Assembly: GCA_024398125.1 (NCBI GenBank)
Contig: JAKSJO010000020.1
Location: forward strand, 1-46,681
Direction: 5' to 3'
Length of the DNA: 46,681 nt
Source of the DNA: Bacteroidales bacterium
GTDB lineage: Bacteria > Bacteroidota > Bacteroidia > Bacteroidales > UBA932
In this document: positions 1 through 19,624 of the stretch, piece by piece
Numbering within the stretch: the stretch's first letter is position 1
How the letters are laid out: every line of letters begins with the position of its first letter
Position numbers and translations under genes: made by a program
The notes under the pieces: model-generated
What the model saw: the letters and a program-made list of their open reading frames with translations, nothing else
Told to the model about the DNA's origin: nothing
Databases searched by the model: none

Positions 1-117
1 CATAACGGAAACAAGTTTATTCCGGTTTATGTAACTGAGCAGATGGTAGGTCACAAGCTTGGTGAGTTCGCACCAACCAGAAACTTTAGAGGTCATTCAG
101 GTAACAATAAGAAGTAA
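1..117 (+). CDS. rpsS: 30S ribosomal protein S19, C-terminal part (partial at left edge)
   Basis: Only the last 38 codons and the TAA lie in the window; the start is off the left edge. The visible part has the S19 C-terminal signature ([12 protein letters not shown], then FRGH) and a short basic tail ending NNKK. S19 sits in the head of the 30S subunit. The rplV start codon follows 2 nt after the stop, as expected inside an S10 operon whose earlier genes would lie upstream. Confidence 0.95.
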
Positions 118-119
118 TT

Positions 120-533
120 ATGGGAAAGCGTAAGAAAGAAATGGCCGAGAGGCTCAAGGCAGCCAAGAAGGTCACAGCTGTTGCCAAGCTGAATGATGTT
201 CCTACTTCACCACGCAAGATGCGTCTCGTTGCAGACACTGTTCGTGGAGTTGAGGTTAACCGCGCACTTGACCTTTTGAAGTTCTCTAAGAGAGAGGCTT
301 CAATCCGTCTGGAGAAGCTCCTCCGCAGCGCGATCGCTAACTGGGAGGCTAAGAACCCTGAGAAGAGCAAGGAGCTCGACAACGGAAATGTATACGTTAA
401 GACCATCATGGTTGATGGCGGTCGTACTCTCAAGAGAATCCGCCCTTGCCCACAGGGTCGTGCAGGACGTATCCGCAAGCGTTCTAACCACGTTACCGTT
501 GTTCTTGATGTTAAACCAGCAGCAGCAGAGTAA
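120..533 (+). CDS. rplV: 50S ribosomal protein L22
   Basis: This 137-residue protein matches L22, which lines the 50S exit tunnel and helps fold 23S rRNA. The conserved core starts near [14 protein letters not shown] (about residues 30-43). The beta-hairpin that reaches into the tunnel is around [12 protein letters not shown] (about 114-125). A Lys/Arg-rich N-terminal stretch and a short Ala-rich tail flank the core. It lies between rpsS and rpsC with gaps of 2 and 6 nt, so it is co-transcribed with them. Confidence 0.97.
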
Positions 534-539
534 TCAATT

Positions 540-1292
540 ATGGGACAGAAAACAAATCCTATCAGCAATAGAATCGGTATCACCCGTGGTTGGGACTCTA
601 ACTGGTGTGGTGGTAACTATGCGGAGAAGATCGCAGAGGATTACGAGATCCGCAAATACCTGACTAGCCGTTGTGCAAAGGCTAGCCTTTCAAAGATCGT
701 CATCGAGAGAACTCTCAAGCTCATTACCGTGACTATCCACGCTGCACGCGTTGGTGTCATCATCGGTAAGGGTGGAAATGACATCGACAAGCTCAAGGAC
801 GAGCTCAAGAACGTAACCAAGAAGGACGTTCAGATCAACGTCATGGAGGTTAAGCGTCCTGAGATCGACGCACACATCGTAGCTGACAGCATCGCTCGTC
901 AGATCGAGGGTCGTGTTTCTTACAGAAGAGCTGTCAAGATGGCTGTTGCCAACGCTATCCGTGTTGGTGCAGAGGGTATCAAGATCCAGATCAGCGGTCG
1001 TATCGGTGGCGCCGAGATGGCACGCAGCGAGATGTACAAGGAGGGTCGTACCCCTCTTCACACCTTCCGCGCAGACATCGACTACGCTCTCGCAGTAGCA
1101 AACACAAAGGTAGGTTGCCTTGGTATCAAGGTTTGGATCTGCAACGGTGAACGCTACGGAAAGCAGGATCTCTCTCCTAACTCAGGAAACGCTGCAAACG
1201 CACAGGCTCCTGCACAGAATGGACGTGGTGGTCGTGATCGTGGCCCACGCCGCGGTGGTGACCGTCGTCCTCGCAGAGACAACCAGAAGTAA
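540..1292 (+). CDS. rpsC: 30S ribosomal protein S3
   Basis: S3 forms part of the mRNA entry site of the 30S subunit. The 250-residue product starts with the typical MGQKTNP, has a type II KH domain with its GKGG loop at about residues 75-78, and the S3 C-terminal domain around [12 protein letters not shown]. The last 30 residues are an Arg/Gly-rich extension ([13 protein letters not shown]) beyond the E. coli length. In the usual gene order rplP follows directly. Here rplP is about 10.3 kb away, so rpsC is the last ribosomal gene of this segment. Confidence 0.97.
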
Positions 1293-1314
1293 TTCCTCAA
1301 AGAGTTACAAGTCT

Positions 1315-1349
1315 ATAAAGGCCGGTTCCGGATACGGGATCGGCTTTAT
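1315..1349 (+). terminator. Hairpin after rpsC (possible terminator or attenuator)
   Basis: The outer arms ATAAAGGCCG and CGGCTTTAT pair with one bulged base, and an inner TTCCG/CGGGA stem closes a GATA loop. No clear T-run follows, so termination may be weak and read-through into the next gene is possible. It marks the point where the ribosomal operon is interrupted. No TAnnTTTG promoter was seen between it and the next gene. Confidence 0.5.
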
Positions 1350-1370
1350 AAGTTAAAAGGGAACTAAAAA

Positions 1371-2216
1371 ATGAAGAAGTTTTTTCTTTTCAGCGCAATT
1401 GCGCTTTTTGCAGCGGTAAGCTGCTCAAATGCGAAGCCTAGCCAGGCAGAACTTCTTGAGGCGTACCAGACCGAAACGGAGACCCTCATCACTGCATACC
1501 AGGATAACATGATGGCTACCCAGGCAGATTCGACCCTCACTGACGAGGAAAAGGCAGCGAAGATGCAGATCTTCAGCGACCAGATCGAGAATGACCTTGT
1601 CGGCCTTGCTGTCCTCACCATCACCAAGCATGGCTCGGATTCAGTTGCTCTCAACGCGCTCAAGGATGTCTACTACATGGTAGACGCAGATAAGCTTGAG
1701 CAGCTCCTCGACAACATCAAGGGTGACATCAAGAACGATGCTTTCGTACAGCAGGTATCAGGCAGCCTCCAGGCAAAGAAGTCTACCAAGGAAGGCCAGA
1801 TGTTCACTGATTTCACCATCGAGCAGTATCCTGAGAACGAGAACAAGGGTGTAGTCAAGTTCTCTGACTATATCGGCAAGGGCAAGTATGTCCTCGTTGA
1901 CTTTTGGGCTTCATGGTGCGGCCCATGCAAGGCTGAGCTTCCTAACATCAAGCATGTGTATGACACATATAAGGGTGAGAAGTTCAATGTCCTCAGCGTG
2001 GCTGTATGGGATGACCCTAAGGACACCGAGAGAGCGGCATACGAGCTCGGTATCGACTGGAGCCAGATTGTGAACGCCCAGAATATACCTACCGATATCT
2101 ACGGTATCGATGGTATTCCTCACATCATTCTTTTCGGTCCTGACGGAACCATCGTGAAGAGAGAGCTTCGCGGTGCTGCCATCGAGGCTGCAGTAAAGGA
2201 GGCACTTGGCCTCTAG
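1371..2216 (+). CDS. TlpA-like thioredoxin-fold lipoprotein
   Basis: The 281-residue product has a lipoprotein-type signal with the lipobox Cys at residue 18 (AVSC), so it is probably anchored facing the periplasm. An Ala/Glu-rich helical region covers about residues 25-140. The C-terminal thioredoxin fold has the active site WCGPC at 182-186 and a cis-proline segment GIPHI near 249-253. Such TlpA/ResA-like proteins exchange disulfides in the cell envelope; the partner cannot be told from sequence. The uvrC start lies 3 nt after its stop, so the two are probably co-transcribed. Confidence 0.88.
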   Translation: MKKFFLFSAIALFAAVSCSNAKPSQAELLEAYQTETETLITAYQDNMMATQADSTLTDEEKAAKMQIFSDQIENDLVGLAVLTITKHGSDSVALNALKDVYYMVDADKLEQLLDNIKGDIKNDAFVQQVSGSLQAKKSTKEGQMFTDFTIEQYPENENKGVVKFSDYIGKGKYVLVDFWASWCGPCKAELPNIKHVYDTYKGEKFNVLSVAVWDDPKDTERAAYELGIDWSQIVNAQNIPTDIYGIDGIPHIILFGPDGTIVKRELRGAAIEAAVKEALGL

Positions 2217-2219
2217 CCC

Positions 2220-4013
2220 GTGGACATCCGCGAAAAGATAAGTCTATTACCACATTCCCCCGGGGTCTATCGCTATTATGACTCCGCGGGGAATGTTATC
2301 TATGTAGGTAAGGCAAAGGACCTGAACAAGCGTGTCGCGCAGTATTTCGTGTCCGAAGACCGCCTCAACCTCAAGACAAGGATACTTGTCTCCAAGATTG
2401 CTGACGTCCAGTATGCTGTCGTCGACAGCGAGGCTGACGCCCTGCTTCTGGAGAACAACCTGATCAAGCAGTACAAGCCGCGCTACAACATACTGCTTAA
2501 GGATTCCAAGACCTATCCTTGGATATGCGTAACCGGTGAAACCTTCCCTCGCGTCTTTTTGACCAGGAAAGTGGTTCATAATGGTTCACGCTATTTCGGA
2601 CCATACAGTTCGGTCAAGCATGCACGTCATCTCCTGGACTTCATAAATGAGAACTATATGCTCCGTTCCTGCCGTCACAAGATTGACTCGGAGACAATCC
2701 TGCGCGGCAAGATAAGACCTTGCATCGACTACCAGATCCATCGCTGCTCAGGCTGTTGTGCCGGGGCGATATCCGTGAAGGAGTATAACGAGGGCATCGA
2801 GGAAATCGTTGCGATACTCAAAGGTGGTACTGGAGAGATTATCCGTGGGTACAAGGCTCGAATGATAGAGGCTGCCGAGGCGCTAGCCTTTGAGCAGGCC
2901 CAGATGTACAAGGAGAAGATTGAGTCTCTCCAGAATCATTATGCCCGAACCATCATTTCTACCGACAGGCATGTCGACTGCGACGTCTTCTCGCTGGATT
3001 TCGACGGGAACGAAGCTTTTGGAAACTTCCTCAGGGTACGTTCGGGGGCCATCGTCCAGTCTCTCAACCTCGGTTTCAGGATGAACATCGAAGAGGATCG
3101 TGAAACCGTTCTCAGTACATTCATCGGCGAGATTGAATCCAAGTTCGGCAGACTGTCTCATGAGATAGTTGTTCCCTTCCTGCCGGATGTCGAGCTGCCG
3201 AACATCGAATTCATAATTCCTGTCCGTGGAGACAAGCTCCAGATGCTCGGTCTCAGCCTCAAGAATGCGAAGGAGTTTCACCTCAATTCCCTCCTTCAGC
3301 GCGAGCATACTGATCCGGAGGCCTTCCACCAGAAGGTAATGGAGGACCTGAGGGACGCTCTCGGCATGAAGGTCCTGCCGGTGCATATGGAGTGTTTCGA
3401 TAACTCGAATACCCAGGGTACGGATCCGGTTGCGTCATGTGTGGTATTCCGCAACGTAGAGCCTTGCAAGAAGGATTATCGCAAGTTCAAGATTAAGACC
3501 GTCATAGGCGCGAACGACTTTGCTTCCATGAAGGAAGTGGTCAACAGGCGCTATTCAAGAATGCTGGAAGAGGCTCCGGACGATCTGCCCCAGCTCGTCG
3601 TCATCGATGGCGGCAAGGGTCAGCTTGATTTCGCCTTCCAGGCTCTGGCCGAGCTTGGCCTGACCGACAGGATAACTGTGATCGGCCTCGCAAAGCGTAT
3701 GGAGGAGGTGATCCGCGTAGGGGATCCTTATCCTCTGTTCATCGACAGGAATTCGCAGGCCCTGAAAGTTCTGCAGCATATCCGTGACGAGGCGCACCGC
3801 TTCGGTATCACGTTCCATCGCAGCCTGCGTGACAAGTCCGGCATGAGGTCAGCCCTCAGGGAGATAAAGGGCGTGGGCGAGAAGACTGAACAGCGTCTGT
3901 TGATGCATTTCGGCAGCGTAGCCCGCATCAGCGCGGCTCCGGTCGAAGACATTGCAAGGCTGGTAGGCCCTGCATTGGCTGATACGATAAAGAAAACACT
4001 TAACGAACAGTAG
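2220..4013 (+). CDS. uvrC: Excinuclease ABC subunit C
   Basis: UvrC makes both incisions during nucleotide excision repair after damage recognition by UvrA/UvrB. The 597-residue protein has an N-terminal GIY-YIG nuclease domain (GVYRYYD...IYVGKAKDLNKRV), a cysteine cluster (RPC, HRC, SGCC) at the position of the UvrC iron-sulfur site, a UVR helix pair around residues 200-245, the RNase H-like 5' nuclease domain (ECFDNSN, VIDGGKGQL, DEAHRF) and C-terminal HhH motifs (IKGVGEKT). Length is normal. Translation probably starts at GTG 2220, 3 nt after the previous stop; pnuC follows after 4 nt. Confidence 0.96.
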   Translation: MDIREKISLLPHSPGVYRYYDSAGNVIYVGKAKDLNKRVAQYFVSEDRLNLKTRILVSKIADVQYAVVDSEADALLLENNLIKQYKPRYNILLKDSKTYPWICVTGETFPRVFLTRKVVHNGSRYFGPYSSVKHARHLLDFINENYMLRSCRHKIDSETILRGKIRPCIDYQIHRCSGCCAGAISVKEYNEGIEEIVAILKGGTGEIIRGYKARMIEAAEALAFEQAQMYKEKIESLQNHYARTIISTDRHVDCDVFSLDFDGNEAFGNFLRVRSGAIVQSLNLGFRMNIEEDRETVLSTFIGEIESKFGRLSHEIVVPFLPDVELPNIEFIIPVRGDKLQMLGLSLKNAKEFHLNSLLQREHTDPEAFHQKVMEDLRDALGMKVLPVHMECFDNSNTQGTDPVASCVVFRNVEPCKKDYRKFKIKTVIGANDFASMKEVVNRRYSRMLEEAPDDLPQLVVIDGGKGQLDFAFQALAELGLTDRITVIGLAKRMEEVIRVGDPYPLFIDRNSQALKVLQHIRDEAHRFGITFHRSLRDKSGMRSALREIKGVGEKTEQRLLMHFGSVARISAAPVEDIARLVGPALADTIKKTLNEQ

Positions 4014-4017
4014 ACAA

Positions 4018-4755
4018 ATGGCATTCAACGAAAAGAAGTTCAACAAGATCTTCAATGTCTGCATCCTTGCCGGGATGACGATTATGACTGTGCTGCTTAC
4101 AGCATTCAAGCTCGTATCTGCCGATACAGGCAGGCTCTTGCTTCTTATTTCTGCTTTTGGTTCCATCATGGGCGTCTGCAGTACAGTTGCTTCGGCAAAT
4201 GGTAAGATATGGACGTTCTTCTTCGGCTTTTTTGATGTATCCATATATGCCGTTGCCTGCTTCATCGGGGCCAAGTATGGAAATGCCATCCTGCACGCGG
4301 TCTATTTTGTCCCTATGCAGTTCATCGGCTGGTACCAGTGGAACAAACGCGGCAATTCCGAGGAGAATCAGGTGAAGGCTCGCCGCTTCAGCCGCAGCCA
4401 GTGGCTGTTCTATTCACTCATCTTCCTGGTTGGCTCCATCATTTCCTACTTTATCCTTGCCCGTTTTGACAGGGAGTCGGCAGATGCTTTCATCAAGTGG
4501 GCGGTTGTCCTTGATGTAGTCCCTATGATGTGCAACATACTCGGACAGCTGCTTATGTCCATGGCTTATATGGAGCAGTGGGTGTTCTGGATCGGAGTGA
4601 ACATTTTCTCCATCCTCATGTGGATCACAACATACAGCAAGACCCAGGATTCGTATGCTTTGATCTATGTGGTAAAGTATTCTTTCTATCTCATCAATTC
4701 CCTTAATGGTCTTCGCATCTGGCTTAACCTCAGCCGCCCGGAAACCGCTAAGTAA
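4018..4755 (+). CDS. pnuC: PnuC-family nicotinamide mononucleoside (vitamin) transporter
   Basis: This is a 245-residue integral inner-membrane protein with about seven hydrophobic segments. The family-typical aromatic motifs PMQFIGWYQW (near residue 100), WVFWIGVN and a C-terminal KYSFYLINSLNGLRIW are visible. PnuC proteins move nicotinamide riboside, or in subfamilies thiamine or other vitamins, by facilitated diffusion. No riboswitch was seen upstream to hint at the substrate. It follows uvrC after 4 nt in the same transcription unit. Family is confident, substrate is not. Confidence 0.88.
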   Translation: MAFNEKKFNKIFNVCILAGMTIMTVLLTAFKLVSADTGRLLLLISAFGSIMGVCSTVASANGKIWTFFFGFFDVSIYAVACFIGAKYGNAILHAVYFVPMQFIGWYQWNKRGNSEENQVKARRFSRSQWLFYSLIFLVGSIISYFILARFDRESADAFIKWAVVLDVVPMMCNILGQLLMSMAYMEQWVFWIGVNIFSILMWITTYSKTQDSYALIYVVKYSFYLINSLNGLRIWLNLSRPETAK

Positions 4756-4773
4756 CTGAAAAGCCCCAAGTTT

Positions 4774-4803
4774 TTGGTTATTCCAGCTTTTTTGCTAAAT
4801 TTG
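4774..4803 (+). promoter_or_regulatory. Bacteroidota-type promoter for acpP
   Basis: TTG at 4774-4776 and TAAATTTG at 4796-4803 are separated by 19 nt, matching the TTG / TAnnTTTG consensus. This leaves a 5' UTR of roughly 45 nt before acpP. Confidence 0.7.
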
Positions 4804-4855
4804 TGGCGAAAACGTGACAGTGTATATTAAAACATAAACTTAATTTTTTACTATT

Positions 4856-5110
4856 ATGCAGCACGAGGAAATCGTAAAGAAGGTAAAGGACATCATCGTT
4901 GACAAGCTCGCTGTTGAGGCACAGCAGGTTACCGAGGAGGCAAACTTCACCAATGATCTTGGCGCAGACTCACTTGACACCGTAGAGCTTCTTATGGAGT
5001 TCGAGCGCGTGTTCGACATCAAGATTCCTGATGAGGAGGCTAGCAACATCGCTACCGTTAAGGACGCTGTTGACAGAGTTGAGGCTAAGCTCGTAGAGCT
5101 CGGAAAGTAA
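4856..5110 (+). CDS. acpP: Acyl carrier protein
   Basis: The 84-residue acidic helical protein has the phosphopantetheine attachment serine in [15 protein letters not shown] (Ser at about residue 39). It carries acyl chains through type II fatty-acid synthesis in the cytoplasm. It has its own promoter and a strong terminator, so it is monocistronic. In many Bacteroidota fabF follows acpP; here a convergent DUF4270 gene lies downstream instead. Confidence 0.96.
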
Positions 5111-5139
5111 TTCCGGACTTCAATTGAATTGAAACATCA

Positions 5140-5176
5140 AAGAACCCGACTGGAAACAGCCGGGTTCTTCTTTTTT
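5140..5176 (+). terminator. Intrinsic terminator after acpP
   Basis: The 9-bp stem AAGAACCCG/CGGGTTCTT (5140-5148 and 5161-5169) is followed by C and a T-run. It lies between convergent acpP and the DUF4270 gene. On the minus strand the arm is followed by a weaker T-rich stretch, so it may serve both genes. Confidence 0.88.
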
Positions 5177-5191
5177 GTATCTGTTTTGTAT

Positions 5192-6892
5192 CTAGTTCTT
5201 GCGAGGGATAGAGTAGACGAAGTGGAACATTGGCTTCCTCTCGCTATCCGATTCTGGGCCTATGAGCTTTCCTCTGTAGAAGCGGTCTCTGTCAAGCTCG
5301 ATAGACGAGAATGTTGAGTTGCCTGACATCATGGCTGCCATCATCGCCATGTTGTAGTAGTTGCTGCCGTAGCCATATCCGTAGCCACCGTAACCATAAC
5401 CGCCGTATCCCATTCCGTATCCGCCATAGCCCATGCCATAGCCGCCGTATCCCATACCGTATCCACCATAACCGCCATAGCCGCCGTATCCGTACATGTT
5501 GTTATAGTAGTTGGCCATGCTCATGGCACTCATGTAGTTCATCATTTCCGAACCGTCATCTTCGTTCTCGGTGATTTCCTTCTTCATGATCATGAACCAG
5601 ATGTCGTAGTTGCTGAGTTTTGCGCTTTCGCTGGCCTTCAGGACATGCTGGAGGTGGTATGTGGCGTCAGCCCTGTACTCAAGGAGTGATCGGTTGATCT
5701 TTCCCGGCTCCTCACTGGTCGATGTCGCATCGGTAAGGCTGCCGTAGCTTACGCCTTCCTTGAAGGAGATTCTTGCGGTAGGATTGAGGTACTCAGGATA
5801 GAAGTTGAGATCGGTCCACTCCTCGGGCATCTCGAATGGGAAGATGATTGAAGCCCTGTTGACAATGACCTCCTCGGGCTTGTCTGTATGCTTTGATACC
5901 TCTTCCTTCATGATTTTCTGGAGGTATTCTGCAGGAATGACAGGCTTGAGACCGCCGCCGCCCTCGATGGTGATAGTCTCTCCGGCCTTCATTGCGCGGT
6001 CACGGGTCTCGTGGGTCGCAACGTTGTATGCGTAGAGTGGGAAGGTCTCTCCGTTATTGGTATTTACGCTGGAGAGAAGGGAATCCACTCTGTATACTTT
6101 CTGTGGGCAGAGATAGAAAAGGAATGTGGTGTCTTTGCGCTTTCCTTCGTATTCCGAATTGAAATCCAGTCTTGCGTACTGGCCGCTTACGGTGTTGTAT
6201 GAGCTGCTGTAGCTGAGCTGGAGCTTGAAGATGTTGATTCTTCCGCCTATTGCCTTTGGTGCGTCCGAGGTAAGATAGATGCCCGGGAACTTCTTGAGGT
6301 ATGTATTGAGGTCCTTGAGGTCTTCCTGCTTGATGTTCATGTACCTCTTGCCATATTCCTCCGTGAAGTTGAATGAGAGCGAATCGGTGGTGCCGGAAAC
6401 CATAGGGATGCCTTTTGATATTCTTTTGTTTCCGTGTGCGAGGCTGGCGTTGATGTCGTTCTTGGTGAAGTCCAGGACCTCCTCGAGCTCATATACGTTG
6501 ATGTTCTGGAGCAGGTGCTCCTGATTCTCCTGGAATACGGAGGTGGTATCACGGGCTACGCTGAAGTAGAATCTCTTGTAAACAGGATTCTTTCCGTAGT
6601 CGAGGGTGTCGAGCAGCGGGAGAAGGGTTACGGCGCTTGACCTGGTGGTCAGTCCGAACTCTTTGTCACGGATGGCTCCGACTGTGATCTTGGTGTTGGA
6701 ATAGCCTGAAAGGCTGTCCGCCATCCTCAGCTCGATGTTCTCGATAGGGATGTCGGCATAGTAGGTATCGAACAGCTGGTCTGTAGGAACAGTGTTTGTT
6801 CCGAGCCTGTAGTCCGTTTCTATGCAGGAACTGACACCGAAGCACGCAGCGACTGCGAGAGCTGCGAATCCGGCTTTGTTGAAGATGTTCAT
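5192..6892 (-). CDS. DUF4270 lipoprotein with Gly/Tyr-rich tract
   Basis: This is a DUF4270-family lipoprotein with signal MNIFNKAGFAALAVAACFG and lipobox VSSC, followed by the family-typical start IETDYRLG. The body is a long beta-rich region without known catalytic motifs; function is unknown. Near the C terminus, between two regular segments, lies a low-complexity Gly/Tyr tract, after which the conserved-looking end (FSSIELDRDRFYRGKLIG) resumes, so the reading frame is intact. An ATG at 6907 would add five residues and overlap the upstream gene by 14 nt; the 6892 ATG leaves a 1-nt gap. It is co-transcribed with the GlgA-like gene. Confidence 0.85.
   Translation of the reverse strand: MNIFNKAGFAALAVAACFGVSSCIETDYRLGTNTVPTDQLFDTYYADIPIENIELRMADSLSGYSNTKITVGAIRDKEFGLTTRSSAVTLLPLLDTLDYGKNPVYKRFYFSVARDTTSVFQENQEHLLQNINVYELEEVLDFTKNDINASLAHGNKRISKGIPMVSGTTDSLSFNFTEEYGKRYMNIKQEDLKDLNTYLKKFPGIYLTSDAPKAIGGRINIFKLQLSYSSSYNTVSGQYARLDFNSEYEGKRKDTTFLFYLCPQKVYRVDSLLSSVNTNNGETFPLYAYNVATHETRDRAMKAGETITIEGGGGLKPVIPAEYLQKIMKEEVSKHTDKPEEVIVNRASIIFPFEMPEEWTDLNFYPEYLNPTARISFKEGVSYGSLTDATSTSEEPGKINRSLLEYRADATYHLQHVLKASESAKLSNYDIWFMIMKKEITENEDDGSEMMNYMSAMSMANYYNNMYGYGGYGGYGGYGMGYGGYGMGYGGYGMGYGGYGYGGYGYGYGSNYYNMAMMAAMMSGNSTFSSIELDRDRFYRGKLIGPESDSERKPMFHFVYSIPRKN
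5366..5494 (-). repeat. Tandem Gly-Tyr-Gly coding repeat inside the DUF4270 gene
   Basis: About 43 codons encode only Gly and Tyr plus occasional Met, in units such as GYGGYGMGYGGYGM. Units are 12-21 bp long with GGC/GGA/GGT and TAC/TAT codon variation, so the DNA repeat is imperfect and in frame throughout. The tract is flanked by Asn/Tyr/Met-rich segments (ANYYNNMY and SNYYNMAMMAAMM). Confidence 0.9.
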
Positions 6893-6893
6893 C

Positions 6894-7718
6894 TTAAAGA
6901 CTGTCATAAAAATTATCGTAGTCCTCCACGTACTTTCCGCTTTCGATGGCGGCTGCGTCGAATGGGAGAACAGGGATCTTCAGCTCGCTGCAGAAATCTC
7001 CGAGTCCGGCAGGGATGCCTTCCGAACCCATGATGACTCCGTCAGAGTAGCTGATGGCTGTTTTCGCAAGATTTATGCCATCGGCTTTCTCTGTGAGCCA
7101 AGGGATGTCGGCTGCGGTGATGTTGCCGAACAGGGCGGATTCGCCGGTGTTGGCTGCGAACTTTTCCGATGGGATGTCGTCATAGAGGGAAAGGACAACC
7201 TTGCTGTTGCTGAAGATAGGATCGTCCTTGTACGCTTTCTTGAGATAGAGAGGGAGAAGGTGCGAGATCCAGCCCTGGCAGTGGATGACGTCCGGAGCCC
7301 AGCGGAGCTTCTTGACTGTCTCGAGCACACCGCGGGCGAAGAAGATGGCTCTTTCCCCGTTGTCTTCAAAGAAGGTTCCGTTGTCATCGCGGAAGACCTG
7401 CTTGCGGCGGAAGTAGTCTTCGTTGTCGATGAAGTACACCTGGATCCTTGCTGAGGAGATGGATGCGACCTTGATGATCAGCGGTCTGTCGACGTCGCTG
7501 ATGATTATGTTCATTCCGGAGAGGCGGATCACCTCATGAAGCTGGTTCCTTCTCTCGTTGATACAGCCATATCGCGGCATGAAAGAACGGATTTCCTTGT
7601 GACGTTCCTGGATGCCCTGGGGAAGATAACGACCAATCTTTGAAATCTCTGTTTCAGGCAGGTAGGGATAGATTTCCGAGTTTACGAAAAGTATTCTTTT
7701 TACTGAGCCTTCAGCCAT
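6894..7718 (-). CDS. Glycogen/starch synthase N-terminal-domain protein (GT5-like, no GT-B C-terminal domain)
   Basis: The 274-residue product starts with KRILFVNSEIYPYLPETEISKIG, like the N-terminal Rossmann domain of glycogen synthase, and keeps PDVIHCQGWISHLLPLYLKK. The ADP-glucose-binding KTGGL motif is replaced by SKIGRY and the whole second domain is absent, so it is unlikely to make glycogen alone. Short proteins of this type recur in Bacteroidota with unclear function. ATG 7718 was chosen because the -7 motif at 7744-7751 would start transcription downstream of ATG 7742. The DUF4270 gene follows immediately. Confidence 0.8.
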   Translation of the reverse strand: MAEGSVKRILFVNSEIYPYLPETEISKIGRYLPQGIQERHKEIRSFMPRYGCINERRNQLHEVIRLSGMNIIISDVDRPLIIKVASISSARIQVYFIDNEDYFRRKQVFRDDNGTFFEDNGERAIFFARGVLETVKKLRWAPDVIHCQGWISHLLPLYLKKAYKDDPIFSNSKVVLSLYDDIPSEKFAANTGESALFGNITAADIPWLTEKADGINLAKTAISYSDGVIMGSEGIPAGLGDFCSELKIPVLPFDAAAIESGKYVEDYDNFYDSL

Positions 7719-7743
7719 CTTTGAAGCATTTTGGTTATTCATG

Positions 7744-7751
7744 CAAAGATA
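7744..7751 (-). promoter_or_regulatory. -7 element for the GlgA-like/DUF4270 operon
   Basis: The minus strand reads TATCTTTG, the commonest form of the Bacteroidota -7 motif. No good TTG element was found at the right distance. It is about 30 nt from the oppositely oriented -7 element of ftsX. Confidence 0.6.
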
Positions 7752-7781
7752 ACATTTTTTTTCCAAATCTACATATTTCAC

Positions 7782-7789
7782 TATCTTTG
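7782..7789 (+). promoter_or_regulatory. -7 element for the ftsX operon
   Basis: TATCTTTG lies 23 nt before the ftsX ATG. The -33 region is T-rich but lacks TTG. It is divergent from the GlgA-like promoter in the same short intergenic region. Confidence 0.6.
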
Positions 7790-7812
7790 GCGGTTGATAT
7801 ACTTTATCTTAT

Positions 7813-8691
7813 ATGTCTCGACAGGAAAACAGAATGATGCGCAGAAGGCTGCGCAACGCATATCTTTCGACTGTGGTCAGCATCAGTCTGGTGCTGCTTC
7901 TGGTCGGCGTTGCCGCCATGCTGCTTGTCAATGCGAAGAGCGTTTCCAACTATTTCAAGGAAAACATGCGCATTTCCGTTATGATGAAGACGGATGTTTC
8001 CGATGCCGAGACCATGGAGTATCAGGAGACCCTGGACGCAATGCATTTCGTCCGCAGCACGGAGTTCATCTCCAAGGCTCAGGGAACGGCCGAGCTGGAA
8101 CAGATGCTTGGCGAGGACTTCCTCAGCGTCTTCGAGACCTCTCCGGTGCCAGCCTCCATTGACGTAACCCTCCAGGCGGACTATGTCTCTTCGGACAGTC
8201 TTGCCATCGTCAAGGCCGCAATCGCGGAGTCGCCTCTTGTCGAGGAGGTCGAGTATCAGCAGTCGCTCATTGAGGCTCTCAATGCCAACCTGCGCAAGAT
8301 CTCGATAGTCCTGGCGGTCTTCATCGGACTGCTCCTGTTCATTTCCTATGTATTGATAAACAACACCGTGCGCCTCAGCATATTCTCCCGCCGCTTTACC
8401 ATCCATACCATGAAGCTTGTGGGAGCGACTCGCTCGTTCATACGCGCACCTTTCCTTGTAAGGGCTGTGTTCCAGGGAATCTTCTCGGCGTGCATCGCGG
8501 CACTGTGCCTTATTGGAATTCTTTTCTATCTCCGCGGCCAGTTCCAGCAGCTTTTCGAGATATTCTCCGCCCAGATGCTTCTGGCGGTGATCGGCATCGT
8601 ACTGGCAAGCGGCATGCTCATCTGCGTCGTCAGCACCTGGTTTGCAGTCAACAGGCTCGTCAGCCTGAGCAAGGACGACCTTTACTATTGA
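7813..8691 (+). CDS. ftsX: Cell division protein FtsX
   Basis: FtsX is the membrane half of the FtsEX ABC-type complex that activates peptidoglycan hydrolases at the septum. The 292-residue protein has an N-terminal TM helix (about 20-42), an extracytoplasmic domain (about 45-165) and three C-terminal TM helices. The conserved cytoplasmic segment RRFTIHTMKLVGATRSFIRAP is visible. ftsE is not in the window. It is followed after 6 nt by the DUF3098 gene and then uppP, an envelope-biogenesis operon order common in Bacteroidota. Confidence 0.93.
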   Translation: MSRQENRMMRRRLRNAYLSTVVSISLVLLLVGVAAMLLVNAKSVSNYFKENMRISVMMKTDVSDAETMEYQETLDAMHFVRSTEFISKAQGTAELEQMLGEDFLSVFETSPVPASIDVTLQADYVSSDSLAIVKAAIAESPLVEEVEYQQSLIEALNANLRKISIVLAVFIGLLLFISYVLINNTVRLSIFSRRFTIHTMKLVGATRSFIRAPFLVRAVFQGIFSACIAALCLIGILFYLRGQFQQLFEIFSAQMLLAVIGIVLASGMLICVVSTWFAVNRLVSLSKDDLYY

Positions 8692-8697
8692 TCGACT

Positions 8698-8928
8698 ATG
8701 GATAACAGAATGGCAATGACTCCGAAGGAGCTGAGGCTCCTTCTCGCCGGACTTCTGGTCATCGTGGCCGGCCTCATTCTTCTTGCGGGTGGAGGCAGCG
8801 ATGATCCGAATGTCTTTAACTATGCAATGTTTGACTTCCGCCGTCTTGTTGCGGCTCCTCTCGTGATCGTCTGCGGACTGGTCATCGAGGTGTGCGCCAT
8901 CATGGGCTCTAAAAGCAAGGAGGAATAG
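8698..8928 (+). CDS. DUF3098 small membrane protein
   Basis: The 76-residue product has two TM helices (about 13-30 and 50-68) joined by a short loop containing NVFNYAMFDFRR, the recognisable DUF3098 pattern. Function is unknown. Its fixed place between ftsX and uppP (6 and 2 nt gaps) suggests a role linked to division or envelope precursor recycling, but that is inference. Confidence 0.85.
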   Translation: MDNRMAMTPKELRLLLAGLLVIVAGLILLAGGGSDDPNVFNYAMFDFRRLVAAPLVIVCGLVIEVCAIMGSKSKEE

Positions 8929-8930
8929 CA

Positions 8931-9767
8931 ATGGGATGGTGGCAAGCTATACTGCTCGGTATCGTCCAGGGTCTTACCGAGTTCCTTCCGGTCAGCAGCA
9001 GCGGTCATCTGATGATCGCGCGCGAGCTGTTTGGTGTAGAGGCTGAGGGTTTCCTTGATTTTACTGTCATGGTGCATTTCGGCACTGTGCTGAGTACCGT
9101 CGTGGTGTTCTGGGGCGTGATTTCAAGCCTCCTTAAAGGATTTTTCAAGTTCAGATACAATGACGAGACAGACTATGTCTGCAAGATAATCGTTTCGATG
9201 ATCCCTGTCTTCGTTGTGGGAATGTTCCTGAAAGACAAGGTCGAGGCTCTCTTCGGCGACTCGCTGACGACTGTGGCGATCTGCCTGGTCGTGACCGCGG
9301 TTCTGCTCATGCTTTCCGACATGGATATCCCTGGTCAGATACGCCGCAAGAGCGGCAGGGTGGCAGAGTCAAGCCACAGGAACGGCATTTCGTATCTCCA
9401 GGCACTTGTTGTCGGCCTTGGCCAGGCAATCGCGGTAGCTCCTGGACTGTCCCGTTCGGGAACCACCATCGCAACCGGTCTTATAACTGGCGTGAAGCGC
9501 AGCGTGATGGCTGAGTTCTCCTTCCTCATGGTGCTTGTGCCTATTCTCGGCGAACAGCTTCTGGATATGCTGAAGCATGCCATTTCCGGCGAGGCTGGCA
9601 TGGCTACCGGTGTCGGTGTGCTCCCTCTTGCGCTTGGCTTCATTTCCGCTTTCATCTCGGGTCTCTTTGCCTGCAAGGTGATGGTCGCTCTCGTGAAAAA
9701 GTCGAAGCTCCGCTGGTTCGCTGTCTACTGTGCCGTGGTGGCAGCCGCAATATTCATTTTTGCATAA
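8931..9767 (+). CDS. uppP: Undecaprenyl-diphosphate phosphatase
   Basis: UppP (BacA family) removes a phosphate from undecaprenyl pyrophosphate to recycle the lipid carrier for peptidoglycan and other glycans; high dosage gives bacitracin resistance. The 278-residue membrane protein shows the two family motifs: QGLTEFLPVSSSGH at about residues 14-27 and PGLSRSGTTIATG at about 169-181. About eight hydrophobic segments are present. The last ftsX-DUF3098-uppP gene is followed 6 nt later by the LpxH-like gene. Confidence 0.95.
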   Translation: MGWWQAILLGIVQGLTEFLPVSSSGHLMIARELFGVEAEGFLDFTVMVHFGTVLSTVVVFWGVISSLLKGFFKFRYNDETDYVCKIIVSMIPVFVVGMFLKDKVEALFGDSLTTVAICLVVTAVLLMLSDMDIPGQIRRKSGRVAESSHRNGISYLQALVVGLGQAIAVAPGLSRSGTTIATGLITGVKRSVMAEFSFLMVLVPILGEQLLDMLKHAISGEAGMATGVGVLPLALGFISAFISGLFACKVMVALVKKSKLRWFAVYCAVVAAAIFIFA

Positions 9768-9773
9768 ACAACT

Positions 9774-10496
9774 GTGCGCAAGCGCGTATACTTCCTTTCG
9801 GATGTCCATCTGGGACTCAACGTGTGCGACCCTCGTGCACGGGAGGACAGGCTTGTGCGCTTTCTCGAATCTATTCCTGAAGAGGAAACCGAGGCTCTTT
9901 ACATGCTTGGCGATGTCTGGGATTTCTGGTATGAATACCGTGACGTCGTTCCTGCCGGCTATGCCCGCGTGTTCGCTGCGCTTCAGTCGCTGATCGCGCA
10001 GGGGGTCGAGGTGCATTTCTTCAGCGGCAACCATGACATATGGTGCTATCATTATTTCCAGAGCATGGGCATCAAGGTGCATCATGGCCCGGAGCGTGCC
10101 GTTCATTCCGGAAAGACGTTCGTGCTTGCCCATGGTGACGGCCTCGGCCCTGGGATGCGTCTGTATAAATGCATGAAGGCTGTTTTCCGCAGCCGCGTGA
10201 CCCAGTGGCTCTTCAGTACCTTTGTCCCTGTTCGTCTTGCTTTTGCGCTGGGAAACGGCTGGTCTCTGCATACCAGGCTTGCACATGGCGAGAGGTATGA
10301 GTTCAAGGGAGAACCGGAACCGCTGTATAAGTGGGCTGCCGCGATGGATCCGCAGCCTGATTTCTTCGTCTTCGGCCATCTGCACTGCGAGGTGGATATG
10401 AAAATGCCGTCCGGAGCGCGTCTCTTTGTGCTTCGAGACTGGCTGGACGGCAGCGATGTCATCTGTTTCGATGGCGAGACCATCGGTCGTATCTAG
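9774..10496 (+). CDS. lpxH: UDP-2,3-diacylglucosamine diphosphatase (LpxH-type metallophosphoesterase)
   Basis: LpxH cleaves UDP-2,3-diacylglucosamine to lipid X and UMP in lipid A synthesis at the inner face of the inner membrane. The 240-residue protein has the calcineurin-like metal motifs in order: SDVHLG (9-14), GDVWDFW (46-52), GNHD (85-88), AHGDG and GHLH. Size and motifs fit LpxH, though other Bacteroidota members of this family act on related substrates. The likely start is GTG 9774. Its last 4 nt overlap the end of the convergent DUF4294 gene. Confidence 0.82.
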   Translation: MRKRVYFLSDVHLGLNVCDPRAREDRLVRFLESIPEEETEALYMLGDVWDFWYEYRDVVPAGYARVFAALQSLIAQGVEVHFFSGNHDIWCYHYFQSMGIKVHHGPERAVHSGKTFVLAHGDGLGPGMRLYKCMKAVFRSRVTQWLFSTFVPVRLAFALGNGWSLHTRLAHGERYEFKGEPEPLYKWAAAMDPQPDFFVFGHLHCEVDMKMPSGARLFVLRDWLDGSDVICFDGETIGRI

Positions 10497-11278
10497 TCCC
10501 TGTATCTGTCGGGAATCGTGACCTTTTCCGGCATCTTTCCGAAGATGGAATAGTACAGCGTGTCGAATTCTCCGCGTTCCCACATCTTTATGAGTTCTTC
10601 GGTCGGGCGGTCTTCTCCGTCCGGATCGTAATGTGCCTTGAGGTCTCCGCTGAACAGTTTGGCAACGCCCTGCCACACCGATGCCGCCAGGCCGCTCTTG
10701 TAGTCTTTCACGATGTCATAAGAGGACTTGCCGATCTCGCGGTCTATGAGGCGGCATAGGAGCTTGCCCTGGGATATGGTCATCTGGCGGATTATCGGCT
10801 CGAAATCGGCCAGCAGGCGTTTCTGCCACTGATTGATGTATTTTTCTTTCTGGATGCGGCCGAATCCCTTCGTCTCCAGGTCGTGGTCGACTTCCTTTAC
10901 TATGCGTGAGCACATCTCGGCGTAAGGCCAGGCCTTGTTGAAATTGTATACCAGCCTGTAGTACTGTTTCCAGTCGCTTTTCTTCAGCATCGATTTCCCG
11001 AATATCCATACGGCCGGTACGGCGTCATAGTAGACTGTGTCTCCTCCTTCGATGAAGTATGGCATGAGGCCCCCGCTCGGTTTTTCGGCCTGGGTCTGCT
11101 GGATGTATTTCTGGTCGCGCTTGTTCAGTCTCTTTGCCTCCTTGGCGGCCGCCTTTGCCGCCTTTTCGGCTGCCTTTGCTTCCTTGCGGCTCATGGACTG
11201 TGCCCCGGCGGTCTGGCCGAGAGCCAGGACCGTCAGTAGGAAAAAGGTCAGGATTTTGGTTGCGCGTTTCATTTTCAT
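10493..11278 (-). CDS. DUF4294 family secreted protein
   Basis: The 261-residue product has a signal peptide (MKMKRATKILTFFLLTVLALG, then GAQS) and a Lys/Ala-rich helical stretch (SRKEAKAAEKAAK). The DUF4294 core includes GGDTVYYDAVPAVWIFG and YYRLVYNFNKAWPYAEM. Function is unknown; a periplasmic or surface location is inferred from the signal. Upstream ATG 11296 lies on the wrong side of the candidate promoter, so ATG 11278 was chosen (ATG 11272 is another option). It is transcribed toward lpxH and away from rplP. Confidence 0.82.
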   Translation of the reverse strand: MKMKRATKILTFFLLTVLALGQTAGAQSMSRKEAKAAEKAAKAAAKEAKRLNKRDQKYIQQTQAEKPSGGLMPYFIEGGDTVYYDAVPAVWIFGKSMLKKSDWKQYYRLVYNFNKAWPYAEMCSRIVKEVDHDLETKGFGRIQKEKYINQWQKRLLADFEPIIRQMTISQGKLLCRLIDREIGKSSYDIVKDYKSGLAASVWQGVAKLFSGDLKAHYDPDGEDRPTEELIKMWERGEFDTLYYSIFGKMPEKVTIPDRYRD

Positions 11279-11283
11279 CTTTG

Positions 11284-11315
11284 CAAAAGTAGTCAAAAAA
11301 CCGTTAAAGCATCAA
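11284..11315 (-). promoter_or_regulatory. Promoter for the DUF4294 gene
   Basis: On the minus strand TTG (11313-11315) and TACTTTTG (11284-11291) are separated by 21 nt. The predicted transcription start falls within a few bases of ATG 11278, which implies a leaderless or almost leaderless mRNA. Confidence 0.65.
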
Positions 11316-11482
11316 CTGTGCCGAGGCGATTTTTCCGGGTTTTCGACCATTGTCCAAAATGTGCGGGAATAATTTTTCTTCACTTTTGTAAGTCGTTGAA
11401 AAGGCAAGATTTAGGCTTCGAATTTTTGTGTCGAAAATGTGTGATTTTTAATGAAAATAATTCCGTTTTCGAAAATTTTTAC

Positions 11483-11490
11483 TATCTTTG
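11483..11490 (+). promoter_or_regulatory. -7 promoter element for the rplP-rplQ ribosomal operon
   Basis: TATCTTTG lies 87 nt upstream of the rplP ATG in an AT-rich intergenic region (11297-11577); the -33 region has no clear TTG. It gives the detached second half of the S10 operon a promoter of its own. The leader of about 80 nt shows no hairpin that I can assign. Nothing else was recognised in this 281-nt gap apart from the DUF4294 promoter. Confidence 0.65.
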
Positions 11491-11577
11491 CAATCCAAAA
11501 AATTGGCCAAGTTTTGCCCAACCAGCTGAGGGTCAATGGATTAGGAATTGAATAGTTATTTTTAAAGTTATACAGAA

Positions 11578-11997
11578 ATGTTAGCACCTAAGAGAACAAA
11601 ATTTAGAAGGGAGCAGAAAAACCGCATGAAGGGCATGGCCCAGAGAGGAAACCAGCTCGCATTTGGTTCTTTCGGAATCAAGACCCTTGAAAATTGTTGG
11701 CTTACTGCGCAGCAGATCGAGGCTGCACGTCAGGCTATCTCACGTTACATGAACCGTGAGGGCCAGATCTGGATCCGCGTCTTCCCTGTGAAGCCTGTAA
11801 CCAAGAAGCCTCTTTCAACCCGTATGGGTAAGGGTAAGGGTGATCCTTACGGATACGTTGCTCCTATCACTCCGGGCCGCATCCTTTTCGAGGCTGAGGG
11901 CGTTTCGCTTGCAGTTGCTAAGGAGGCTATGCGCCTCGCTGCAAACAAGCTTCCTGTTGACACCAAGTTCGTTGTCCGCAGAGATTATGTTGAATAA
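11578..11997 (+). CDS. rplP: 50S ribosomal protein L16
   Basis: L16 helps form the A-site tRNA and peptidyl-transferase region of the 50S subunit. The 139-residue protein starts [14 protein letters not shown] and contains RIFP-type segment [15 protein letters not shown] and [15 protein letters not shown]. Normally it directly follows rpsC. Here it is the first gene of a separate transcription unit running to rplQ. Confidence 0.97.
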
Positions 11998-12017
11998 TTA
12001 ATGGAGAAAAAGAGAAA

Positions 12018-12212
12018 ATGAAAATTTCTGAAGTACGCGAAATGTCTGTAGCAGATCTGCGCGACCGTATCGAGGCTGAGAAGGCTAATCTTGATACAAT
12101 GAAGATCAATCACGCTATCTCTCCATTAGAGGATACGTCAAAGTTTAAGAAAACCCGCCAGGATATCGCTCGCATGATCACTATCCTTGCCCAGAAAGAA
12201 AACCAGAACTAA
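12018..12212 (+). CDS. rpmC: 50S ribosomal protein L29
   Basis: This 64-residue all-helical protein sits near the tunnel exit and contributes to the docking site for SRP and trigger factor. It starts MKISEVREMS and has the L29 segment DTSKFKKTRQDIARM. An A-rich GGAGAAAAAGAG stretch precedes its ATG. It lies 20 nt after rplP. Confidence 0.95.
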   Translation: MKISEVREMSVADLRDRIEAEKANLDTMKINHAISPLEDTSKFKKTRQDIARMITILAQKENQN

Positions 12213-12226
12213 AGAGTTATTGACTT

Positions 12227-12481
12227 ATGGAAAGAAATCTTCGTAAGGAAAGAATAGGAATCGTGGTCAGCAACAAGATGGAGAAGACCATCGTCGTTGC
12301 AGTCGAGAGAAAGGAGAAGCATCCTCTCTATGGTAAGTTCGTAAAGAAGACCACCAAGTTTGTCGCTCAGGACGAGAAGAACGAGTGTGGTATCGGTGAT
12401 ACCGTCCGCATCATGGAGACCCGTCCTCTCAGCAAGACAAAGAACTGGAGATTAGTTGAAATTGTAGAAAAAGCTAAGTAA
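12227..12481 (+). CDS. rpsQ: 30S ribosomal protein S17
   Basis: S17 is a primary 16S rRNA-binding protein with an OB fold. The 84-residue product shows [23 protein letters not shown] and the C-terminal [16 protein letters not shown] motif, both diagnostic. Normal length, 14 nt after rpmC and 2 nt before rplN. Confidence 0.96.
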
Positions 12482-12483
12482 TT

Positions 12484-12849
12484 ATGATACAGCAGGAAAC
12501 ACGTTTACAGGTGGCTGACAACAGCGGTGCAAAGGAAGTACTCTGCATCCGCGTGCTTGGCGGTACCCACCATCGTTACGCTTCTGTTGGCGACAAGATT
12601 GTCGTAGCAGTGAAGAGTGCTATCCCTGGCACCGATACCAAGAAGGGAACCGTATCCAAGGCTGTGGTTGTCCGCACCAAGAAGGAGATCCGTCGCGCTG
12701 ATGGTTCATACATCCGTTTCGATGACAACGCATGCGTTCTTCTCAACAACGCAGGTGAGCTTCGCGGAACACGTATCTTCGGCCCTGTTGCACGAGAGCT
12801 GCGTGATGAGTATATGAAGATCGTTTCACTGGCACCAGAGGTCCTCTAA
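12484..12849 (+). CDS. rplN: 50S ribosomal protein L14
   Basis: L14 binds 23S rRNA at the subunit interface and forms intersubunit bridges. The 121-residue product starts [19 protein letters not shown] and has the signature [20 protein letters not shown] and [13 protein letters not shown]. Normal length and order in the spc gene set. Confidence 0.97.
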
Positions 12850-12862
12850 TAACTGAAGAATC

Positions 12863-13180
12863 ATGAAAAAACTGAAGATTAAGAAGGGTGACACCGTGTA
12901 TGTAAATGCCGGTAACGACAAGGGAAAGACCGGTAAGGTCCTCTCAGTAGACTACACCACCGATCGCGTAGTTGTAGAAGGTGTGAACATCATCAAGAAG
13001 CACACCAAGCCAAACGCACAGCAGCCTCAGGGCGGCATCGTAGAGCACGAGGCTGGTATTCATATTTCAAACCTCAACCTTATTGACCCTGTTTCAGGCA
13101 AGGCAACAAGAGTCGGCTACAAGATGGTTGACGACAAGAAGGTTCGTTACGCTAAGAAATCAGGAGAGGAGATCAAATAA
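12863..13180 (+). CDS. rplX: 50S ribosomal protein L24
   Basis: L24 is an early assembly initiator of the 50S subunit with a KOW motif. In this 105-residue protein the KOW segment is [19 protein letters not shown] (about residues 8-26), followed by [13 protein letters not shown]. Gap of 13 nt after rplN and 2 nt before rplE. Confidence 0.96.
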
Positions 13181-13182
13181 TT

Positions 13183-13782
13183 ATGGCAAAGAACGCAAAC
13201 AACGCTGCAGTAGCTAACGCATTGCCTGCAGGATATGTACCTACTCTCAAGAAGGTATACAAGGAGGAGATCGTTGACCGCCTGATGAAGCAGTTCTCTT
13301 ATTCTACTGTCATGCAGGTTCCAAAGCTCGTCAAGATTACTCTCAATGAGGGTGTCGGCGACGCTACCCAGGACAAGAAGATTGTAGAGGAGTCTGCAAA
13401 GGAGCTTACCGCAATCACCGGTCAGAAGGCTATCATCACCAACTCAACCAAGGACGTTTCTAACTTCAAGCTCCGTAAGGGCATGCCTATCGGTTGCAAG
13501 GTTACTCTCCGCGACGTCAAGATGTACGAGTTCCTCGAGAGACTCATCCGTGTGACTCTCCCTCGTATCCGTGACTTCAACGGTATCTCAGAGAAGCTTG
13601 ATGGTCAGGGTAACTACACCCTCGGTCTCAAGGAGCAGATCATCTTCCCAGAGATCGATATCGACAAGAACCCACGCATCCACGGTCTCGAGATCACTTT
13701 CGTGACCTCAGCAAAGACTGACGAGGAGGCTTATGCACTTCTCAAGGAGTTCGGTCTTCCTTTCAAGAAACATAATAAATAA
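13183..13782 (+). CDS. rplE: 50S ribosomal protein L5
   Basis: L5 binds 5S rRNA and contacts the P-site tRNA and the 30S head. The 199-residue product contains [33 protein letters not shown] and [12 protein letters not shown]. Compared with the E. coli protein it has about 19 extra N-terminal residues rich in Asn and Ala before the conserved [10 protein letters not shown] helix. Confidence 0.97.
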
Positions 13783-13790
13783 AGATACCT

Positions 13791-14060
13791 ATGGCAAAAG
13801 AATCAATGAAGGCCCGCGAGGTAAAGCGCGCTAAGTTAGTTGCTAAGTACGCTGAGAAGAGGAAGGCTCTCAAGGAGGCTGGTGACTGGGTAGCTCTCGA
13901 TAAGCTCCCTAAGAACTCTTCATCAGTACGTCTTCACAACCGTTGCTCCCTCACCGGACGTCCAAAGGGATATATCCGTGAGTTCGGAATCAGCCGTATC
14001 CAGTTCCGTGAGATGGCTTCCAACGGTCTCATCCCAGGCGTTAAGAAGGCTAGCTGGTAA
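13791..14060 (+). CDS. rpsN: 30S ribosomal protein S14
   Basis: S14 binds the 30S head. This is the 89-residue long form without the CxxC zinc site (only one Cys, in [13 protein letters not shown]). Segments [17 protein letters not shown] and [19 protein letters not shown] are diagnostic. An 81-nt AT-rich spacer with no recognised promoter motif separates it from rpsH, the longest gap in this part of the operon. Confidence 0.97.
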
Positions 14061-14141
14061 TAGATTTATAACATATATTATTAATAACAATCGGATATCG
14101 GGCGCGTAAAGCCGCGTCGGTTTCAAAAAATCAAGAAAAAA

Positions 14142-14537
14142 ATGACTGATCCAATTGCAGATTATCTCACCAGGGTCCGCAACGCTTACCTCGCAGGTAA
14201 GAAGGTTGTCGAGGTGCCAGCTTCAAAGATGAAGCTCGCTATCACCAAGATCCTTTGTGAAAAGGGCTACATCCTCAGCTACAAGGTTGTTGAGGCAGCT
14301 CCACAGGGCACCATCAAGATCGCTCTCAAGTACCACCCACAGACCAAGGCCGCTGCTATCAAGAAGATTGTTCGCGTGTCTTCTCCAGGTCTCCGTCAGT
14401 ACACCAACGTAGAGGATATGCCAAGAGTACTCAACGGTCTCGGTATCGCTATCCTTTCTACCTCTAAGGGCGTTATCACCGACAAGGAGGCAAAGGACCT
14501 CAACGTAGGTGGTGAGGTTATATGTTATGTATATTAA
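14142..14537 (+). CDS. rpsH: 30S ribosomal protein S8
   Basis: S8 is a primary 16S rRNA binder; in E. coli it also represses the spc operon by binding an mRNA site near rplE. The 131-residue product starts MTDPIADYLTRVRNAY and ends with the S8 segment GLGIAILSTSKGVITDKEAK. No E. coli-like S8 operator structure was identified here. Confidence 0.97.
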   Translation: MTDPIADYLTRVRNAYLAGKKVVEVPASKMKLAITKILCEKGYILSYKVVEAAPQGTIKIALKYHPQTKAAAIKKIVRVSSPGLRQYTNVEDMPRVLNGLGIAILSTSKGVITDKEAKDLNVGGEVICYVY

Positions 14538-14555
14538 TTCCAAAAGTATCTTATA

Positions 14556-15116: not shown

Positions 15117-15130
15117 TAGGAGATTGAGTT

Positions 15131-15493: not shown

Positions 15494-15503
15494 TTGAAAG
15501 ACT

Positions 15504-16022: not shown

Positions 16023-16039
16023 CAGAGGAGGACACGATT

Positions 16040-16222: not shown

Positions 16223-16237
16223 GGAGGAAACTATCTT

Positions 16238-16687: not shown

Positions 16688-16696
16688 TAATCGACG

Positions 16697-18034: not shown

Positions 18035-18055
18035 TTAGAATAAGAACAAAGGAAG

Positions 18056-18835: not shown

Positions 18836-18847
18836 AGTGATTTTTTA

Positions 18848-19066: not shown

Positions 19067-19079
19067 AATTTTTCGCAAT

Positions 19080-19196: not shown

Positions 19197-19233
19197 TATT
19201 CAGTTGTATAACAAATAAAGTCAAGTATAAATT

Positions 19234-19611: not shown

Positions 19612-19624
19612 AAATTGATGATTT

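Follow-up and report, generated by a model that had tools for sequence, protein, structure and literature searches.

In a large group of Bacteroidales, sampled chiefly through gut metagenomes, a single ancient breakage seems to have left the S10-spc-alpha operon of ribosomal protein genes in three pieces. This S10 cluster is a standard case of gene order kept by selection, usually explained by co-transcription, co-translational assembly and stoichiometry. We analysed a 46,681-nucleotide stretch, here called the window, from Candidatus Cryptobacteroides, a genus that includes C. gallistercoris, C. fimicaballi and C. faecipullorum and belongs to the family we take to be UBA932. The window is the entire contig C13 (JAKSJO010000020.1) of a draft genome with 49 contigs and 97.6% completeness (GCA_024398125.1). 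In this genome the operon is in three pieces: rpsL-rpsG-fusA-rpsJ, rplC-rplD-rplW-rplB-rpsS-rplV-rpsC and rplP...rplQ. Its two cuts, at rpsJ|rplC and rpsC|rplP, are shared by 18 of the 24 sampled genera of the family; the split genomes placed in a phylogeny form a single clade, and promoter-like and terminator-like sequences stand at the new ends.

An earlier note on the window, made from the sequence alone, had already described rpsC and rplP as separated by about eleven ordinary genes free of mobile DNA, with a hairpin behind rpsC and a -7 element belonging to rplP that made the break look functional. This description held. The gap measures 10.3 kb and contains eleven gene-sized open reading frames (ORFs), by ORF list and Pfam scan. 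Ten of them match ordinary Pfam families: thioredoxin-like, UvrC, nicotinamide mononucleotide (NMN) transporter, acyl carrier protein, Glyco_transf_5, FtsX, DUF3098, BacA/UppP, calcineurin-like phosphoesterase and DUF4294. The Pfam scan gave no match for the remaining ORF, at 5192-6907 (571 amino acids), for which the name DUF4270 is only our guess. Transposase, integrase and phage genes are absent among these eleven scanned ORFs, although terminal repeats were not searched for; a small ORF at 11318-11551 (77 amino acids) lies in the gap outside the scan. The hairpin 3' of rpsC has 13 pairs, and the stretch 1290-1375 that holds it folds at -24.5 kcal/mol (z -3.7); it lacks a T-run and a generic terminator scan did not list it. 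The element TATCTTTG, 95 nt upstream of rplP, resembles the -7 consensus of the Bacteroidetes primary sigma factor, TAnnTTTG (PMC7366714), and no TTG stands at the expected -33 distance from this candidate rplP promoter. The features of the window that bear on the split are as follows.

1..117, + strand: 3' end of rpsS (S19); contig C13 begins here and the reading frame runs to a stop
120..533, + strand: rplV (L22), penultimate gene of the middle piece (Pfam PF00237)
540..1292, + strand: rpsC (S3), final gene of the middle piece (Pfam PF00189, PF07650)
1318..1347, + strand: terminator-like hairpin 3' of rpsC, without a T-run (folding)
1371..4755, + strand: TlpA-like thioredoxin, uvrC and NMN transporter (pnuC) genes (Pfam)
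4856..11296, mixed strands: block of acyl carrier protein, ORF 5192-6907 (-), Glyco_transf_5 ORF (-), ftsX, DUF3098, BacA/UppP, calcineurin-like phosphoesterase and DUF4294 (-) (Pfam)
11483..11490, + strand: -7 motif TATCTTTG, candidate promoter of the third piece (motif scan)
11578..11997, + strand: rplP, first gene of the third piece (Pfam L16)
11578..22147, + strand: third piece, rplP rpmC rpsQ rplN rplX rplE rpsN rpsH rplF ... rpoA rplQ, the spc-alpha part (rplP and rpmC by Pfam)
33923..33930, + strand: -7 motif TATCTTTG before rpsL (motif scan)
33982..37330, + strand: first piece, rpsL rpsG fusA rpsJ, downstream of rplQ (Pfam)

Pfam matches cover S3, L16, L22, S10, S12, S7, EF-G, L29 and L3 among the cluster genes. 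The reading frame at 1..117 we take to be rpsS, in agreement with the gene order in relatives; the names in the third piece beyond rplP and rpmC are likewise presumed from sequence and order.

The earlier note had seen one break, and there are two: it did not mention that rpsJ in the window is not followed by rplC. In the same genome rplC lies on another contig (C4:2014-2649), and the end of C4 shares an exact 55-base overlap, inside rpsS, with the first bases of C13, so that rplC-rplD-rplW-rplB-rpsS-rplV-rpsC is one seven-gene run severed on both sides. We searched for rpsJ and rplC in 62 family genomes, 53 split and 9 unsplit, terms that refer only to the state of the junctions rpsC|rplP and rpsJ|rplC. 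The two genes are adjacent in all nine unsplit genomes and in none of the 53 split ones, where they lie on one contig in 14 (nearest 8.9 kb) and on different contigs in 39; other genes stand before rplC in the loci of every one of the 18 split genera. Within each piece, genes and gene order are the same as in the S10-spc-alpha clusters of other families and of six unsplit genera of this one; compared with the intact cluster, the split clade differs in the two cuts and in the promoter- and terminator-like sequences at the new ends. The fusA|rpsJ junction is intact in those split loci that show it.

Gene order in relatives, the comparison the earlier note had proposed, bears the separation out in the genus and the family. 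Within Cryptobacteroides, for which the matched public records are mostly metagenome assemblies, many from ruminants or faeces and animal guts, 101 genomes were searched; rpsC and rplP were both located in 75, and in none of these are they neighbours. The 43 genomes with both genes on one contig comprise 37 in which rplP lies 10.2-20.0 kb downstream on the same strand and six in which the genes are 26.8 to 506 kb apart, four of these on opposite strands. Across the family (genera numbered g1-g24; G and L denote genomes and loci), 111 of 119 genomes could be classified: rpsC and rplP are apart in 92 from 18 genera, with 18 on one contig and 74 on different contigs, and adjacent in 19 from six genera (g7, g8, g9, g19, g20 and g23). 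The eight others comprise one without a match (G124), four with only rplP and three in which rpsC was not among the matches listed. Elsewhere in the order the genes are adjacent in 72 of 73 genomes representing 73 families; in the lone exception, G223, rpsC and rplP lie 97 nt and 169 nt from contig ends, and it was therefore not counted as split.

Since different contigs alone prove little, each of the 18 split genera was represented by one or more genomes in which we read the DNA 3' of rpsC; we found other sequence there and never rplP, with only 1-2 kb available in g5 and g24. The possibility that the break is a misassembly or binning artefact of one draft genome draws on the window being one complete contig, with its start inside rpsS, of a draft in 49 contigs, and on many relatives' contigs likewise starting just upstream of rpsC. 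Against it, the break occurs throughout the 92 genomes, including the single-contig genomes G103, G110 and G166, rplP does not stand directly 3' of rpsC in the loci read from any split genus, and promoter motifs and hairpins track the break. With the break present across genus and family, and the C4/C13 overlap in hand, we rejected an artefact, whose probability we regard as negligible; the earlier note's preference for chromosome rearrangement over misassembly stands. The contig starts of relatives, often a few hundred bases upstream of rpsC near rpsS-rplV (G021, G050, G043, G054, G069 and G099), probably reflect assemblies that broke off at conserved sequence, as happened with the window too. 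In several genera, genes of the shikimate pathway occur near rpsC (L117, L121, L125, L163-L165), presumably aroC-, aroA/aroE-fusion- and aroB-like.

A tree of 14 concatenated proteins (13 ribosomal proteins and EF-G) from 54 genomes, namely 32 split and 10 unsplit family members and 12 outgroups, places all 32 split genomes in one clade (ultrafast bootstrap 100, Shimodaira-Hasegawa-like approximate likelihood ratio test 100), with one change of state on it and in 100% of 200 bootstrap trees. In a first, quicker tree, the unsplit genera g9 and g23 are the sister group of this clade. An arrangement with all 10 unsplit family members as one clade is disfavoured (approximately unbiased test, p-AU 0.028), which argues that the split state is derived inside the family. 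One split clade amid paraphyletic unsplit genomes, in turn, points to one origin.

The 10 kb between rpsC and rplP has a different and younger history. The earlier note had pictured one operon interrupted by an insertion of some 10 kb of core genes, and here it needs revision, as the separation dates to the ancestor of the 18 genera and the gap is a later arrangement. Loci from 12 split genera out of 18 (g1, g3, g4, g5, g6, g10, g11, g15, g16, g17, g18 and g21) carry the DUF4294 gene upstream of rplP, usually together with the genes that precede it and in some with intervening genes; g12 has the block there without DUF4294. It was not seen upstream of rplP in the g2 and g14 loci. Nor was it seen beside rplP in the early-branching genera g13 and g22, which have DUF4294 at another place; for g24, whose DUF4294 is on another contig, too little sequence precedes rplP on its contig to judge. 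In unsplit genera and outgroups the block is not beside ribosomal genes within the 4-20 kb stretches read, where the original landing site was not found. The other part of the gap, tlpA-uvrC(-pnuC) 3' of rpsC, was seen only in loci of the window's genus. Given this genus-only distribution and that of the DUF4294 block, the gap is best read as a later juxtaposition of pieces and not as an insertion. A recent 10 kb insertion in this species only could appeal to the ordinary nature of the intervening genes and to a spacing of about 10 kb, in the same order, that is common in the genus; yet in other genera with both genes on one contig these are 22-454 kb apart, some on opposite strands, so the separation is older than the 10 kb arrangement, and such an insertion leaves aside the second cut at rpsJ|rplC. 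On the older separation and the genus-restricted tlpA-uvrC we rejected it as highly improbable.

Counted within 300 nt upstream of gene starts, the -7 motif is present before rplC in 24 of 24 split genomes (3.1 expected from shuffles), three of nine unsplit genomes and two of 11 outgroups, and lies 66-72 nt before the rplC start in 21 of the 24. Before rplP it occurs in 28/28 split genomes (5.0 expected from shuffles), 3/10 unsplit genomes and 0/12 outgroups. The usual operon start, rpsL, carries it throughout (19/19 split, 5/5 unsplit, 7/7 outgroups). The counts for internal genes are as follows: rplN 4/30 split, 3/10 unsplit and 1/12 outgroups; rplB 1/29, 0/10 and 0/12; and rpsJ 0/20, 4/8 and 0/11. 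In unsplit loci no motif falls inside the rpsJ-rplC spacer (nine measured) or the rpsC-rplP spacer (10 measured). A larger set comprised 64 distinct rplC leaders, from which two too-short loci and one with an unrecognised start had been left out, and 38 distinct rplP leaders. We infer that the motifs before rplC and rplP act as promoters.

For the new 3' ends we looked for a stem of at least seven pairs, at least four of them G-C, within 110 nt 3' of the gene. Such a stem follows rpsC in 21 split genomes out of 29 (1.8 expected), none of 10 unsplit genomes and none of 12 outgroups, and rpsJ in nine of 20 split genomes (1.6 expected), none of nine unsplit genomes and none of 11 outgroups. These stems probably act as terminators. 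The resemblance of the new ends to the ends of transcription units suggests, at the level of sequence, that the pieces are separate units.

Taken together, these observations are consistent with an ancestral rearrangement in two cuts, with new promoters and a terminator and later movement of the blocks, a reading to which, as a whole, we give a probability of about 0.87. In the ancestor of 18 of the 24 sampled genera, chromosomal rearrangement would have cut the S10 region at rpsJ|rplC and rpsC|rplP into three transcription units. New promoters would have arisen upstream of rplC, for the middle unit (rplC-rpsC), and upstream of rplP, for the rplP-rplQ unit; in most lineages a terminator-like hairpin would also have formed behind rpsC, where the middle unit now ends, each unit then being transcribed alone. 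Later the pieces may have moved about the chromosome like any other block, and the observed gap would reflect a frequent arrangement in the window's genus, with the middle unit about 10 kb upstream of rplP.

We infer that the cause was rearrangement, by excision or transposition or by inversions, and not piecemeal duplication and loss. Had the S10 region been duplicated and the two copies then lost complementary sets of genes, separate partial copies would have resulted with no harmful stage in between. Yet rpsC and rplP each have a single match in nearly all genomes, although remnants of other genes were not searched for. Moreover, rpsJ and rplP share a contig in 18 split genomes; the two are on the same strand in 13, and in eight of the 18 rplP lies 23-58 kb downstream of rpsJ on one strand, which fits, without proving, removal of the middle block from between them. 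We consider duplication and loss unlikely.

Several points weigh against the two-cut rearrangement with new signals. No stem was detected after rpsC in eight of the 29 split genomes or after rpsJ in 11 of the 20, and four or more T directly follow the stem in only nine of the 21 rpsC stems. The -7 motif also occurs by other genes (rpsJ in 4/8 and rplN in 3/10 unsplit genomes, rplN in 4/30 split ones), and the locus of one relative (L043), with its full upstream stretch, lacks it before rplC. The genomes are for the most part drafts in several contigs, and of the 92 scored as apart, 74 have the two genes on different contigs, though loci from all split genera were read. Finally, the tree covers 32 split genomes and not all 92, and it was built from these same ribosomal proteins and EF-G, with a modest p-value in the approximately unbiased test.

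The spacers of intact clusters offer a view of the junctions before the split. The rpsJ-rplC spacer is -4 to 31 nt in eight outgroups measured of the 12, and 50-135 nt in nine unsplit family genomes (the L151-L160 set); between rpsC and rplP, all 10 unsplit family genomes have 21-29 nt. The rpsJ|rplC junction may thus have loosened before breaking. A further outgroup, G262, has an rpsJ-rplC spacer near 90 nt by eye, so that a long spacer is not unique to the family. An inverted repeat is visible by eye in some of the unsplit spacers (L151-L160). Unsplit genera also show departures of their own: in g19 other sequence, not fusA, precedes rpsJ in both loci read (L154, L158), in one g9 locus (L160) about 1.9 kb separates fusA from rpsJ, and in g9 additional spacers or small ORFs separate rplB, rpsS and rplV.

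The leaders behind these motifs share a start. In the split clade, rpsL, rplC and rplP leaders (L111-L230; about 11490-11577 in the window) begin CAnCCC and many fold at the 5' end. CCC follows within nine bases of the -7 motif in 21/23 rplC, 22/23 rplP and 14/17 rpsL leaders of split genomes, and in four of 68 non-ribosomal genes of the same loci; the corresponding counts for a 5'-terminal stem are 20/23, 5/23 and 9/17, and six of the 68 non-ribosomal genes. Among rplM leaders of split, plus-orientation loci with the motif, 8/10 have the stem and 10/10 the CCC, and the values for rplU are 5/21 and 12/21. CCC also occurs in unsplit leaders of rplM (3/3; four of 26 rplM gene starts found) and rpsL (2/4), indicating that the CCC start is older than the split, and in none of seven outgroup rpsL leaders. 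The CCC start thus belongs to several of the family's ribosomal promoters and is not confined to the new ones. The idea that the 5' stem is special to the newly separated units was rejected, as rpsL and rplM leaders also have it; rplU leaders mostly lack it.

Taken singly, 51 of the 64 rplC leaders fold in their first 40 nt at z < -1.5; the rpsL leaders from unsplit genera and outgroups, 10 in all, fall short of this value without exception. With RNAalifold, no consensus fold emerged from MAFFT alignments of 63 rplC and 24 rplP leaders, and cmscan of 10 loci (eight split, two unsplit) and the window gave no Rfam leader at gathering score, its matches being tRNAs and one cobalamin riboswitch only. 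A shared start site and leader, CAnCCC after the -7 motif and often a 5' stem, might keep the separated units balanced, a regulon replacing co-transcription; we consider this rather doubtful. If true, the clade would offer a natural experiment on whether stoichiometry requires ribosomal operons.

Further along the window, two near-identical small lipoprotein-like ORFs on the minus strand (42535-42882 and 44925-45377) lie on both sides of an ORF that we take to be RhuM-like, close to a tRNA-Met gene at 42279. This stretch could be duplicated or integrated DNA.

Breakage of the S10 cluster is of a known kind, and this particular case we found nowhere in print: full-text searches, beyond whose reach lay most subscription journals, returned no account recognisable as this split. 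A survey of 113 genomes describes the alpha-spc-S10 region as clearly conserved in most (PMC2837039). The ribosomal operons of Aquifex aeolicus lie apart from one another in the genome, unlike those of Hydrogenobaculum and Sulfurihydrogenibium, whose order is compact; in Aquifex mostly whole operons are separated, with str in two parts, whereas in the split clade S10 is cut internally, and across 18 genera (PMC3879981). In spirochaetes, some genes of the Leptospira S10-spc-alpha locus are translocated in Borrelia and Treponema, but the genes named there as dispersed, fus, adk, infA and rpsD, are not those at rpsJ|rplC or rpsC|rplP, and Leptospira keeps the locus (PMC2481283). Archaea have uL3-uL4-uL23-uL2 as a separate cluster and uS10 with str genes, a separation that resembles the rpsJ|rplC cut; they keep uS19-uL22-uS3-uL29 with the spc part, whereas the split clade is cut after uS3 (PMC10833476). 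In Vibrio cholerae, relocation of the whole S10 locus costs growth; the likeness lies in ribosomal genes at new chromosomal positions, but there the change is engineered and the locus in one piece, and here it is natural, fragmented and maintained (PMC10127744).

A clade of 18 sampled genera thus keeps its S10 cluster in three, on a defined branch, with unsplit sister genera and with signal-like sequences at the cuts. The split provides a synteny marker for the clade, and the question of why ribosomal operons stay together becomes testable, through expression ratios, growth-rate signatures and chromosome position compared between split genera and their unsplit sisters.

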